64,000 nt of DNA from Shimia gijangensis. Lineage in GTDB: Bacteria > Pseudomonadota > Alphaproteobacteria > Rhodobacterales > Rhodobacteraceae. Position numbers and translations under genes: made by a program. The DNA is taken from contig NZ_FQZQ01000004.1 in assembly GCF_900142085.1 (NCBI RefSeq), positions 62,001-126,000 of the forward strand, given 5' to 3'. The notes under the pieces were generated by a model that saw only the letters and a program-made list of their open reading frames with translations, searched no databases and had not been told where the DNA came from. Of this stretch, positions 25,896 to 32,536 are shown piece by piece; the first letter of the stretch is position 1, and every line of letters begins with the position of its first letter.

Positions 25896-25930
25896 TTTGT
25901 GATCACAGGTAAGATGGGTGTGATCACAAA
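25896..25930 (-). promoter_or_regulatory. Paired GTGATCAC operator upstream of sucC
   Basis: Two perfect 10-bp palindromes TGTGATCACA (25898-25907 and 25919-25928), centres 21 bp apart, flanked outwards by T and A runs. They lie about 95-125 bases before the sucC start. The same pair, centres 20 bp apart, is found before sdhC (32388-32420). Two-turn spacing and dyad symmetry suggest cooperative binding of two dimers of one regulator. It is not the CRP arrangement (TGTGA-N6-TCACA), since there is no gap between half-sites. Confidence 0.75.
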
Positions 25931-25954
25931 ATTAATGCATTCAAATGCATCTCT

Positions 25955-26839
25955 TCATTGCCTGCCAAAACTGGCGATTCTCCCGAGCCATGTTAGCAGT
26001 GTTTGTTTCCAACTTGCTTTGCCTGCAAAGGCTTTTGCATCGGCATGGACCGGAATGCCGGGGAATTTGTCGCAAAATGGCTCGGTTCTTGTGGCAGGGC
26101 GGTTGGAATTCAGGGTTTTGTCGCGCAAAAGCCATTCTTGCAGGTGCTGTTCAAAATCAGGCCCCACCAATTCCGCCAGAGTTTGAAATTCCTGACCGGA
26201 GTTCAGTCGCATTAAGTGTAAGCGAGAGCTGTGGATGATCCTTGGTGCCATCGTGCGGCTGTCCAGACTGCGGATAAGGTCTGCATCAATAACATTGTAT
26301 TGCGGAGGCAGCGTTGCGATGCGCAAATCGCTATCAAATAGCAATTCACGCAGTATGGGCTGGTCGATGATGGATGGGGAATTCTCAAACTCTTCTTTCC
26401 AACGGTATATGAAACGATCCGCTCTGTCGGATTTTCGAATGCCCAGAACGCCGCTGTTGTACTGCGGAAAGGCTGCGGGAATGGGTTTGCTGTGCTGACG
26501 CAAAGTGTGAGAGGCGACGTTGAGCCGTTGGTCATGAGCCGCCGCTAGATCGAAGTGACCAAGCACGTCAAAGATATCAGCGATCGGAGCGATGACAAAG
26601 AGGTCGGCGTCCAGGCAGATCGTTTTGTCGAAACGTGATCGCAACAAGGCTTCGAACCGGGGCCGTGTAGCGGGCGCGTTGAGAGGTGTGATTTGAGAAA
26701 AAACAGGGTCCGTACAGTCCTGATCTGTGAATAGGTCGATCGGAATGTTCGGATGGTGCTCGGCAACTGTGGCTGCGGCTTGTCGGACCAGACTGGTGTA
26801 GTCTGGCCCTGTTACGGCAAATACGAAACCGTTTGTCAT
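25955..26839 (-). CDS. GT-A fold glycosyltransferase-like protein after mdh
   Basis: A 294-residue protein resembling nucleotide-diphospho-sugar transferases. An N-terminal strand (FVFAVTGPDYTSLVR) is followed by a LDADLFV motif (near residues 96-102) in place of the DxD metal/sugar-nucleotide site, with PQYNSGVLGIRKS downstream as in GT8-like and related families. The start overlaps the mdh stop (TAATG). No membrane segment is seen. It ends just before the sucC operator. Sugar donor and acceptor are unknown, and a link to the TCA cycle is not expected. Confidence 0.72.
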   Translation of the reverse strand: MTNGFVFAVTGPDYTSLVRQAAATVAEHHPNIPIDLFTDQDCTDPVFSQITPLNAPATRPRFEALLRSRFDKTICLDADLFVIAPIADIFDVLGHFDLAAAHDQRLNVASHTLRQHSKPIPAAFPQYNSGVLGIRKSDRADRFIYRWKEEFENSPSIIDQPILRELLFDSDLRIATLPPQYNVIDADLIRSLDSRTMAPRIIHSSRLHLMRLNSGQEFQTLAELVGPDFEQHLQEWLLRDKTLNSNRPATRTEPFCDKFPGIPVHADAKAFAGKASWKQTLLTWLGRIASFGRQ

Positions 26840-27801
26840 TAGCTCAAGGAGCCGTCGATACCTTTACAAGCTTCCATCAGGCCCTGAACCGCTTTGACAG
26901 AGGTGTTGAAGCCGTCTTGCTCTTCTTTGTTGAGCTTGATGTTGATGACTTTCTCAACACCACCGGCACCGATGATGGTGGGAACGCCCACATACATGTC
27001 CTTCACGCCAAGGTCGCCATCACAGTAGGCGGCACATGGCAGAACGCGCTTTTGGTCCTTGAGGAAAGCTTCGGCCATCTCAATTGCCGAGGCAGCAGGT
27101 GCGTAGAAGGCCGAACCGGTTTTCAACAGACCAACGATTTCGGCGCCACCGTCACGGGTGCGCTGAACCATTGCGTCCAGTTTCTCTTGGGTGGTCCAGC
27201 CCATGTCGATCAGGTCAGGCAATGGGATGCCGCCAACAGTCGAATAGCGTACCGAAGGTACCATTGTGTCGCCGTGGCCACCCAGAACAAAGGCGGTGAC
27301 GTCGCGCATTGAGACGTTGAATTCTTCGGCAAGGAAGTGACGGAAGCGTGCCGAGTCCAGAACGCCAGCCATGCCGCAAACCTTGTTGGTTGGCAGGCCC
27401 GAGAATTTTTGCAGGGCCCAGACCATCGCATCAAGCGGGTTGGTGATGCAGATGACAAATGCGTCTGGCGCGTGGGCAGCAATGCCTTCGCCAACAGACT
27501 TCATAACTTTCAGGTTGATGCCCAGAAGGTCATCACGGCTCATGCCGGGTTTACGTGCCACACCTGCGGTCACGATGCAGACGTCAGCACCGGCGATCGC
27601 GGCATAGTCGCTGGCGCCAGACATTGCGGCGTCGATTTTCTCGACTGGGCCGGATTCGGCGATGTCGAGGGCTTTGCCCTGAGGCAGGCCGTCAGCGATA
27701 TCGAAAAGAACAACGTCACCCAGTTCTTTGATAGCAGCGAGGTGAGCGAGCGTGCCGCCGATATTACCTGCGCCGATGAGGGCAATCTTGGGTCTGGCCA
27801 T
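26839..27801 (-). CDS. mdh: Malate dehydrogenase
   Basis: NAD-dependent oxidation of malate to oxaloacetate. The 320-residue product is of the LDH-like MDH type: GAGNIGG (10-16), Asp34 for NAD preference, substrate arginines Arg83, Arg89 and Arg152, and the Asp149/His176 catalytic pair (GGHGDTMVP). It heads the minus-strand TCA block. About 205 bases of non-coding DNA separate it from a divergent lipoprotein; I saw no GTGATCAC pair there, so its control may differ from sucC and sdhC. Confidence 0.97.
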
Positions 27802-28006
27802 AGGAAGAGTCTCCGGTTCGGTTGGATTTTCGCCGCTGGCTTAGGCGGGAATCGCCTCTGACGCAAGTGTTCGCAGGCGCGGCGAAGGGATGCACCACAA
27901 CCAGAAGCATAGAAAACTTGTTGAACTTTAAGGGCCTAAGTGACTTGCAGGGCGCGCCGGACCGGACTAAAAAAGTTAGGAACGCGAAGTTTGAGGGATA
28001 CTTCTA

Positions 28007-30937: not shown

Positions 30938-30941
30938 CGCG

Positions 30942-31145
30942 ATGAAACTCTATCGGTTCCTCAGCGAAGAAGACACGTCTGCCTTCTGTCACAAGGTGAC
31001 GGACGCAATGAACAAGGGCTGGGAGCTTTATGGCTCCCCGACCCAGACTTTCTGTCAGCAAACCGGCGTGATGCGCTGTGGGCAGGCAGTGACAAAAGAG
31101 GTCGAGGGCACATACACCCCCGACACCAAACTAGGAGAGCACTAG
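30942..31145 (+). CDS. DUF1737 small protein
   Basis: A 67-residue cytoplasmic protein starting MKLYRFLSEEDTSAFCHKV and containing the DUF1737 core, NKGWELYGSPTQTF. It starts four bases after the nnrU stop and its stop codon (31143-31145) is followed at once by the mch ATG, so translation is likely coupled. Function unknown. Confidence 0.82.
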   Translation: MKLYRFLSEEDTSAFCHKVTDAMNKGWELYGSPTQTFCQQTGVMRCGQAVTKEVEGTYTPDTKLGEH

Positions 31146-32177
31146 ATGGCCAAGACCAATCCGGGCCGGTTTTTCGAAGACTATACGATGGGCCAAGTGA
31201 TCGAACACGCAGTGCCGCGCACTGTGTCGGGTGGTGAAAGAGCGCTGTATCACGCGCTGTATCCCGCGCGTCATGCTTTGTACTCGTCCGACGCTTTTGC
31301 GCAGGCCAACGGTCTGCCGAAATCGCCAATCGATGATCTGGCGGCATTTCACGTGGTCTTTGGCAAAACTGTTCCGGATGTGTCGCTGAATGCGGTGGCC
31401 AACCTTGGCTATGCCGAAGGGCGCTGGTTGAAGCCTGTCTATGAGGGCGACACGCTGCGGTCGACATCCGAAGTTATTGGTCTCAAACAGAACTCGAACG
31501 GCAAAACCGGGGTGGTCTATGTGCGTACGCGGGGCATGAACCAAAACGACGAGGTCGTGATGGAATATGTCCGTTGGGTGATGGTGCGCAAAGGCAATGT
31601 GGATGCGCCAGCACCCGAAGCCGTCGTGCCCGAGTTGTCCAAGGTGATTGACCCTGCCGATCTGGTGATCCCTGAGGGTCTTGATTTCACCAACTATGAT
31701 TTCACATTGGCGGGCGAGCCGCATCGCTGGGGTGACTATGAAGTCGGTGAAACGATTGACCACGTGGATGGTGTGACGCTGGAAGAGGCGGAACACATGA
31801 TGGCGACACGCATTTGGCAAAACACGGCCAAGGTGCATTTTGACGCCACTTTCCGTCCCGACGGCCAACGTCTGATTTATGGCGGTCACATTATCTCGCT
31901 GGCGCGTGCCTTGTCGTTCAATGGGTTGGCCAATGCGCAAATGATCGTGGGCCTGAACGGGGGGGCACATGCCAATCCTGCGTTCTCGGGATTGACGGTC
32001 AAAGCCTGGTCCGAGGTTCTGGACAAGGCTGAGACAGATGTGCCTGGCGTTGGTGCCATTCGTTTGCGTCTTGTGGCGACCAGAGGTGGCGATCCATTCC
32101 AGCTGCGTGGGGATGACGGTAAATATCTGCCGGATGTGCTGCTTGACCTTGATTACTGGGCTTTGATGCCGCTTTGA
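31146..32177 (+). CDS. mch: Mesaconyl-CoA hydratase (beta-methylmalyl-CoA dehydratase)
   Basis: Hydrates mesaconyl-CoA to beta-methylmalyl-CoA in the ethylmalonyl-CoA pathway. The 343-residue product has two MaoC-type hot-dog domains (about 1-165 and 175-343) and the Mch-specific N-terminus NPGRFFEDYTMGQVIEHAVP. YGGHIISLARALSFNG in the second half matches the family. It is the last gene of the mcl2-nnrU-DUF1737-mch run; no strong hairpin follows. Mch, Mcl2, Ecm and Ccr together make a glyoxylate-bypass substitute very likely in this organism. Confidence 0.93.
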   Translation: MAKTNPGRFFEDYTMGQVIEHAVPRTVSGGERALYHALYPARHALYSSDAFAQANGLPKSPIDDLAAFHVVFGKTVPDVSLNAVANLGYAEGRWLKPVYEGDTLRSTSEVIGLKQNSNGKTGVVYVRTRGMNQNDEVVMEYVRWVMVRKGNVDAPAPEAVVPELSKVIDPADLVIPEGLDFTNYDFTLAGEPHRWGDYEVGETIDHVDGVTLEEAEHMMATRIWQNTAKVHFDATFRPDGQRLIYGGHIISLARALSFNGLANAQMIVGLNGGAHANPAFSGLTVKAWSEVLDKAETDVPGVGAIRLRLVATRGGDPFQLRGDDGKYLPDVLLDLDYWALMPL

Positions 32178-32536
32178 TACGTCTATAGCGGCCAGACTGC
32201 CACGTTTGGTCCAGTGAATTATATGGCGATAGTGTGAAATGGGTAAGCGGGCATACGATTGCGCGTTGATCTTGAAACTCGTGGTCACAAAAAATGCACC
32301 GGCACTCGTCGCTCAGGACATGTCGTAATTCCCGACTCATGCGACGCAAAGGGAACTTTACGCCGCCGAAAGCCATGGTTTCGTTGTTTGTGATCACGAA
32401 TTTTGCCCAGTGATCACAAAATCTGAAAAATTTCAGAAATTGCGCCAAAAAACCGCGCCTTTAGCGCTGCCACAACAGTGACATGAGACGAAATTCCTTT
32501 AGTAAGGACTAGAGAGAAACCGAAAGGATTCAAAAA
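32178..32536 (+). promoter_or_regulatory. 359-base intergenic region: sdh promoter and leader
   Basis: The only gene-free stretch over 300 bases. It holds the paired GTGATCAC operator (32388-32420), followed directly by a second dyad TCTGAAA-AA-TTTCAGA (32422-32437), and an A-rich leader with AAAGGAT before the sdhC ATG. The first 200 bases show no convincing gene on either strand. No tRNA or riboswitch fold was recognised. Confidence 0.6.
32388..32420 (+). promoter_or_regulatory. Paired GTGATCAC operator upstream of sdhC
   Basis: TTGTGATCAC (32388-32397) and GTGATCACAAA (32410-32420): two GTGATCAC cores with centres 20 bp apart, in the same outer T-run/A-run context as the sucC operator. 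It lies about 117-149 bases upstream of sdhC. The match with sucC, in sequence, spacing and orientation, is the basis for proposing a shared TCA regulator. Confidence 0.75.

Follow-up and report, generated by a model that had tools for sequence, protein, structure and literature searches.

How are the two tricarboxylic acid (TCA) cycle operons of this stretch of the Shimia gijangensis genome (64,000 nucleotides, hereafter the window) tied together, and which protein would do so? Both sucC, the first gene of a suc operon, and sdhC, the first gene of an sdh operon, are preceded by two copies of the palindrome GTGATCAC. We propose that these pairs are sites for P0001, a GntR-type protein encoded elsewhere in the genome and orthologous to AkgR of Cereibacter (Rhodobacter) sphaeroides, that two dimers bound to the same face of the DNA activate suc and sdh, and that a single site probably mediates repression of akgR itself. 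From the sequence evidence set out below, we give this reading a probability of about 86%.

Before sucC, the two copies of GTGATCAC occupy positions 25899-25906 and 25920-25927, with a spacer of 13 bp and centres 21 bp apart; before sdhC, they occupy positions 32390-32397 and 32410-32417, with a spacer of 12 bp and centres 20 bp apart. The outer flanks of both pairs are TTT/AAA, and the gene-proximal ends of the operators lie about 96-97 bp 5' of the sucC ATG and 119 bp 5' of the sdhC ATG. A preliminary description of this DNA had reported paired palindromes with these centre distances, bordered outward by T and A runs and located some 95-150 bases 5' of the start codons, and all of this was recovered. 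Its remark that the window holds no other intergenic copy also stands, the only remaining one (60213-60220) lying within an open reading frame (ORF, 59465-60574) that encodes a Bmp-family substrate-binding protein. Shuffled versions of the window contain 1.23 copies on average, and the observed number of five was reached in 0 of 100 shuffles. Across all 78 contigs of the genome (4.09 Mb), there are two GTGATCAC pairs with spacers of 8-36, those of sucC and sdhC, and no pair of the reversed control pattern at the same spacers.

The TGTGA and TCACA half-sites look like the CRP half-site, which might suggest operators of the CRP/FNR type. Such sites have the form TGTGA-N6-TCACA or TTGAT-N4-ATCAA, whereas in the window the palindromes are gapless, the half-sites abutting without the 6-bp gap, as already pointed out in the preliminary description. 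Together with the strict two-palindrome architecture found in 163 loci (see below), this makes a CRP/FNR reading hardly credible. CRP/FNR, MetJ-like, NtrC-like and Lrp-like readings, considered on grounds of geometry, were dropped as unneeded given the AkgR literature and the presence of a GntR gene with a perfect site.

The pair is widespread among relatives. A scan of named prokaryote genomes with spacers of 10-14 yielded at least 120 loci with at least 126 pairs; among the 126 pairs listed from these genomes, 86 precede sucC or sdhC after removal of identical sequences. Two Rhodobacterales loci (L048 and L090) have their pair at the end of the stretch with the downstream gene out of view, and in two others (L077 and L080) the pair lies within overlapping ORFs and looks coding. 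The other matches are mostly from different phyla. Even sampling of the order gave 244 genomes, all under the family label of the window, which C. sphaeroides shares, and at least one pair is present in 239 of them: two pairs in 212 genomes, one in 16 and three in 11 (G032, G046, G058, G086, G097, G126, G143, G155, G171, G175 and G183), with none in the remaining 5. The preliminary description had asked for such a scan of related genomes and their downstream genes, and had made its proposal, in which one TCA-cycle regulator uses a composite site common to both operons, depend on enrichment before TCA genes and on conservation. Both were found, with 163 suc/sdh loci and not one occurrence of the reversed control pattern in the 244 genomes, and the comparative data thus support that proposal. 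The 8-mer also occurs singly in coding sequence, and some matches in other phyla have codon-like flanks, as chance or codon-driven repeats would. Nevertheless, the empty control and the position of the pairs before two orthologous operons across many genera leave such an origin next to no credit.

Among 289 evenly sampled alphaproteobacteria, the pair is present in all five members of the family and in 4 of the 284 others. No suc or sdh gene was recognised in the 2.5-3 kb stretches around these four matches. As none of the matches outside the family is at suc or sdh, the pair before these operons is, in our samples, a trait of this family. Of note, one alphaproteobacterium from outside the family has a GTGATCAC pair with a spacer of 13 (L267:992-1020) between two ORFs that by eye resemble those of a TonB receptor and a GntR protein, which suggests that paired use of the motif has arisen elsewhere too.

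The architecture of the pair was analysed in the named loci, 80 further stretches and the C. sphaeroides region, with 170 pairs assigned to sucC or sdhC and 31 unassigned. Removal of identical downstream sequences left 88 distinct sucC and 75 distinct sdhC loci. Of these 163 loci, 140 have a spacer of 13 and 23 a spacer of 12; spacers of 11 and 14, which the search also admitted, do not occur. About two helical turns thus separate the palindrome centres. The outer flanks are more conserved than most of the inner flanks.

Which protein, then, would recognise these sites? The genome contains 12 loci for FCD-type GntR proteins, 11 of which were scored over 250 bp upstream; the twelfth, L129, is listed with an internal stop and yielded no ORF to score. 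P0001 alone has TTTGTGATCACAAA upstream with 0 mismatches, the other ten showing at least five. This site is part of a perfect palindrome of 24 bp, whose end lies immediately 5' of the start codon. P0001 comprises the Pfam GntR and FCD domains. In metal-binding GntR proteins of the FCD type, the pocket consists of an acidic residue and three histidines; in the aligned AkgR sequences and their close relatives, Asn, His and His are present and the third His is replaced by Asp. The chemistry of the AkgR effector may differ as a result of this Asp. No ligand of AkgR is reported in the accessible portions of the literature searched.

Genome G094, which a 2308-bp match to plasmid pB at 100% identity marks as C. 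sphaeroides 2.4.1, has pairs before both sucC and sdhC, and it carries a convergent GntR gene, 77% identical to P0001, about 0.75 kb past the end of sdhB. According to PMC4344238, the GntR protein RSP_0981 is predicted to regulate RSP_0967-6 (sucCD), RSP_0974-6 (sdh) and RSP_0965-62 (sucAB), and mdh is RSP_0968 in C. sphaeroides numbering. The gene order of G094 fits the numbering RSP_0968 / RSP_0974-6 / RSP_0981. In PMC6365646, GTGATCAC is given as the AkgR motif, and AkgR is called an activator in C. sphaeroides. The system is therefore already known, as the AkgR regulon. The preliminary description had not recognised the regulator as AkgR, and had placed it apart from both operons; the latter is correct for this genome, where contig C51 carries the candidate gene and C71 the window, but does not hold generally, as the gene adjoins sdhB in C. 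sphaeroides.

Regulator and operators also tend to be missing together. A strong match to P0001 (E at most 1.3e-78) is found in 239 of the 244 genomes of the order, the others being G023, G110, G141, G227 and G232, and the genomes devoid of an exact pair are G110, G141, G227, G231 and G232. Both are thus absent from four genomes in three genera (Fisher p 1.7e-7; by genus, 2.5e-5). G231, which has a strong match, harbours near pairs at spacer 13, with 1 mismatch before sucC and 2 before sdhC. The four doubly lacking genomes have no sucC or sdhC pair within 4 mismatches, except for sdhC of G141 (3 mismatches, spacer 11). Outside the family (284 genomes), the best P0001 match has an E value of 7.8e-43 and 38% identity, and a paralogue of P0001 in its own genome (E 2.1e-40) is little worse. 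It could be argued that the pairs belong to some other conserved regulator, P0001 with its single site being a coincidental relative that shares the half-site, given that GTGATCAC is present within 250 bp of the start of 5 of the 17 outside-family relatives scored, and also at L267, which was chosen for its pair. These cases indicate that GTGATCAC is not unique to AkgR. Yet the joint absence in four genomes, the published motif and target predictions in PMC4344238 and PMC6365646, and the location of the gene next to sdh in C. sphaeroides render this explanation improbable.

If AkgR is the regulator, does it activate or repress? The promoters are informative in this respect. A motif search blind to operator position found an element resembling GTGACA-N16-TATTAA before sdhC, which we take to be the -35/-10 region. 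The match to this element starts 54-57 bp from the operator in 54 loci, 65-68 bp in 10, 75-77 bp in 7 and 44 bp in 1, so that 72 of the 75 loci are in phase and none falls in the gaps between classes. Such a concentration was reached in 0 of 20000 smoothed nulls for each of three widths, the nulls, which ignore kinship, being built on the 72 loci with a distance of 40-90 bp, with the 3 others left out. For the 29 loci whose SdhA sequence sufficed for a tree, six changes of turn class are required, and for each of two classes taken singly four changes are forced by well-supported branches. Before sucC, the element AAAAnCctTT lies 38-40 bp from the operator in 62 of the 88 loci, 28-29 bp in 13, 50-52 bp in 4 and elsewhere in 9; with a narrower motif, the two main classes hold 54 and 18 loci, and 16 are elsewhere. 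The distance between operator and promoter shifts by whole helical turns. That between the operator and the sdhC start codon spreads from 113 to 204 without whole-turn steps (39 loci). In the window, the sucC element is at position 28 and belongs to the short class, about one helical turn closer to the operator than in most relatives, and the likely sdhC promoter is 60 bp past the operator.

Phasing of this kind argues for activation, as it is expected where a protein has to face RNA polymerase on a single side of the DNA, but phase alone is not decisive because looping also needs it. AkgR might thus bind the pairs and repress suc and sdh, by looping or by blocking another activator, until relieved by a metabolite. 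Most FCD-type GntR proteins are repressors, and the site before akgR covers the core promoter, a repressor position. However, the pairs are upstream of the inferred -35 region and in helical phase with it, as expected for activation, and AkgR is described as an activator in PMC6365646, which makes repression of the two operons unlikely. In the activation model that we favour, each GTGATCAC would accommodate one AkgR dimer, and two dimers, two helical turns apart, would both sit on one face of the helix, 5' of the -35 regions of suc and sdh. The pair would activate both promoters through contact with RNA polymerase, and succinyl-CoA synthetase, 2-oxoglutarate dehydrogenase and succinate dehydrogenase would rise together. 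The single copy over the akgR core promoter, in this genome as in many relatives, would in turn probably repress akgR. The sites, their conservation and phasing, the co-occurrence and the candidate gene are what the sequences show; binding of P0001 at the pairs, occupancy by two dimers, polymerase contact and autorepression are what we infer.

The site before akgR was surveyed mainly in 70 of the 242 genomes with a P0001 match. Of the 30 best matches, 29 have a single GTGATCAC there, as do 24 of a further 40 chosen from various genera among the other matches listed. TTGAC begins 17-19 bp 5' of the palindrome in 52 of 53 cases. The site would thus span the spacer and the likely -10 region, as expected for a repressor. 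Negative autoregulation of akgR is therefore probable, without being universal.

Several observations weigh against our interpretation. No self-site is found in C. sphaeroides, G231, L169 or 16 of the 40 picked genes. G023 has both pairs, and akgR was not found in its 80-contig draft. Conversely, G110 and G227 have no suc or sdh pairs but carry a relative of 47-50% identity (L196 and L197), which branches as the sister of the AkgR clade with 100/95 support and has GTGATCAC as a self-site in its promoter. As for the phasing, 3 of the 75 sdhC loci are outside the classes, with the element at unrelated places, as are 9 to 16 of the 88 sucC loci depending on motif width. A sucC motif run including the leader gave a weak phase (R 0.53); this expectation-maximisation (EM) run locked onto the leader, and the classes above come from the run upstream of it. 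As the genomes are related, the phase and Fisher statistics overstate independence. Finally, equating the C. sphaeroides gene with RSP_0981 relies on gene order, and we take RSP_0981 to be AkgR.

The features discussed here are collected in the table below.

Table. Operators, likely promoters and genes of the suc and sdh operons in the window, and the candidate regulator gene. Gene names in the window were given by recognition.
Feature	Position	Strand	Basis or remark
Composite operator before sucC, TTT-GTGATCAC-N13-GTGATCAC-AAA	25896..25930	-	Sequence, genome scan, relatives
Composite operator before sdhC, TTT-GTGATCAC-N12-GTGATCAC-AAA	32387..32420	+	Sequence, genome scan, relatives
Likely sucC promoter, -35-region CCTTAA 25864-25859, -10-like TATATC 25838-25833	25833..25864	-	De novo motif; assignment inferred
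Likely sdhC promoter, -35-like GTGACA 32478-32483, -10-like TAGTAA 32500-32505	32478..32505	+	Inferred from conservation
sucC, succinyl-CoA synthetase beta, first suc operon gene	24606..25802	-	ORF
sucD	23719..24600	-	ORF; C. sphaeroides comparison
sucA, 2-oxoglutarate dehydrogenase E1	19959..22934	-	ORF; C. sphaeroides comparison
sucB, 2-oxoglutarate dehydrogenase E2	18459..19955	-	ORF; same operon presumed
sdhC, first sdh operon gene	32537..32920	+	ORF; C. sphaeroides comparison
sdhD, start taken as first ATG within ORF 32901-33302	32931..33302	+	C. sphaeroides comparison
sdhA	33319..35124	+	ORF; C. sphaeroides comparison
sdhB	35864..36670	+	ORF; C. sphaeroides comparison
P0001, candidate akgR	L131:1465-2115	-	Contig G000:C51; window lies on C71

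The sucC of the window is 85% identical to the C. sphaeroides copy. A 294-residue ORF (25955-26839, minus strand) with a weak, sub-cut-off match to nucleotide-diphospho-sugar transferases lies between mdh and sucC, a gap of only about 230 bp in C. sphaeroides. Similarly, a 261-residue ORF without a Pfam match (22931-23716, minus strand) separates sucA from sucD, which are about 60 bp apart or less in C. sphaeroides. Between sdhA and sdhB, an ORF (35078-35845, plus strand) resembles by eye FkbM-type methyltransferases. Further away, neighbouring ORFs (49813-51262, plus strand) look by eye like those of a LuxR-type regulator and a LuxI-type autoinducer synthase.

This work connects a previously anonymous motif with a named regulator. 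It also shows that a twin operator links two TCA-cycle operons in almost every genome sampled from the order. The whole-turn spacing serves as a naturally occurring test of how an activator must be placed and yields a testable prediction for an activator of the GntR family. It is tempting to go further and to view AkgR as a stereospecific twin-dimer activator whose two dimers, exactly two turns from each other, have to face RNA polymerase, whose promoters evolve only by whole turns and which represses itself through one site. The two-operon circuit would then have arisen within Rhodobacterales by recruitment of a self-regulating GntR protein that used GTGATCAC, the sister GntR protein of one genus retaining the self-site alone. 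We would give this wider scenario even odds. In the literature searched, which did not include the primary AkgR paper, no account was found of the paired arrangement, of spacing by whole turns, of the shared absence of pairs and regulator or of the site before akgR; these may be in print.

How does the Shimia system compare with others? It resembles the AkgR regulon of C. sphaeroides by the GntR/FCD family of its regulator, a 77% identical orthologue, by the GTGATCAC motif and by its targets, sucCD/sucAB and sdh. It differs in that akgR is on a contig apart from sdh and carries a self-site, which C. sphaeroides lacks. By sequence, the closest solved structure to P0001 is that of McbR of Escherichia coli (PDB 4p9f, E 5.1e-20), also of the GntR/FCD family, whose operator and targets differ from those of AkgR. 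CceR, the second central-carbon regulator of C. sphaeroides and a LacI-family protein that we take to be RSP_1663, is distinct as well, its motif not being contained in the GTGATCAC palindromes when these alone are read. In C. sphaeroides, mdh and sdh are also among the predicted targets of RSP_1663, whose motif is given as [AGT]GTT-N6-8-AAC[ACT] (PMC4344238). Lastly, the GntR protein PS417_07240 of Pseudomonas simiae, 32% identical to AkgR, has GTGATCAC before its own gene; unlike AkgR, it is proposed to control a deoxyribonate cluster, with the palindrome at -47 to -40 from the start codon (PMC6365646). The presence of GTGATCAC at the gene of this Pseudomonas protein and at those of the other relatives outside the family suggests that the motif may predate the TCA circuit.

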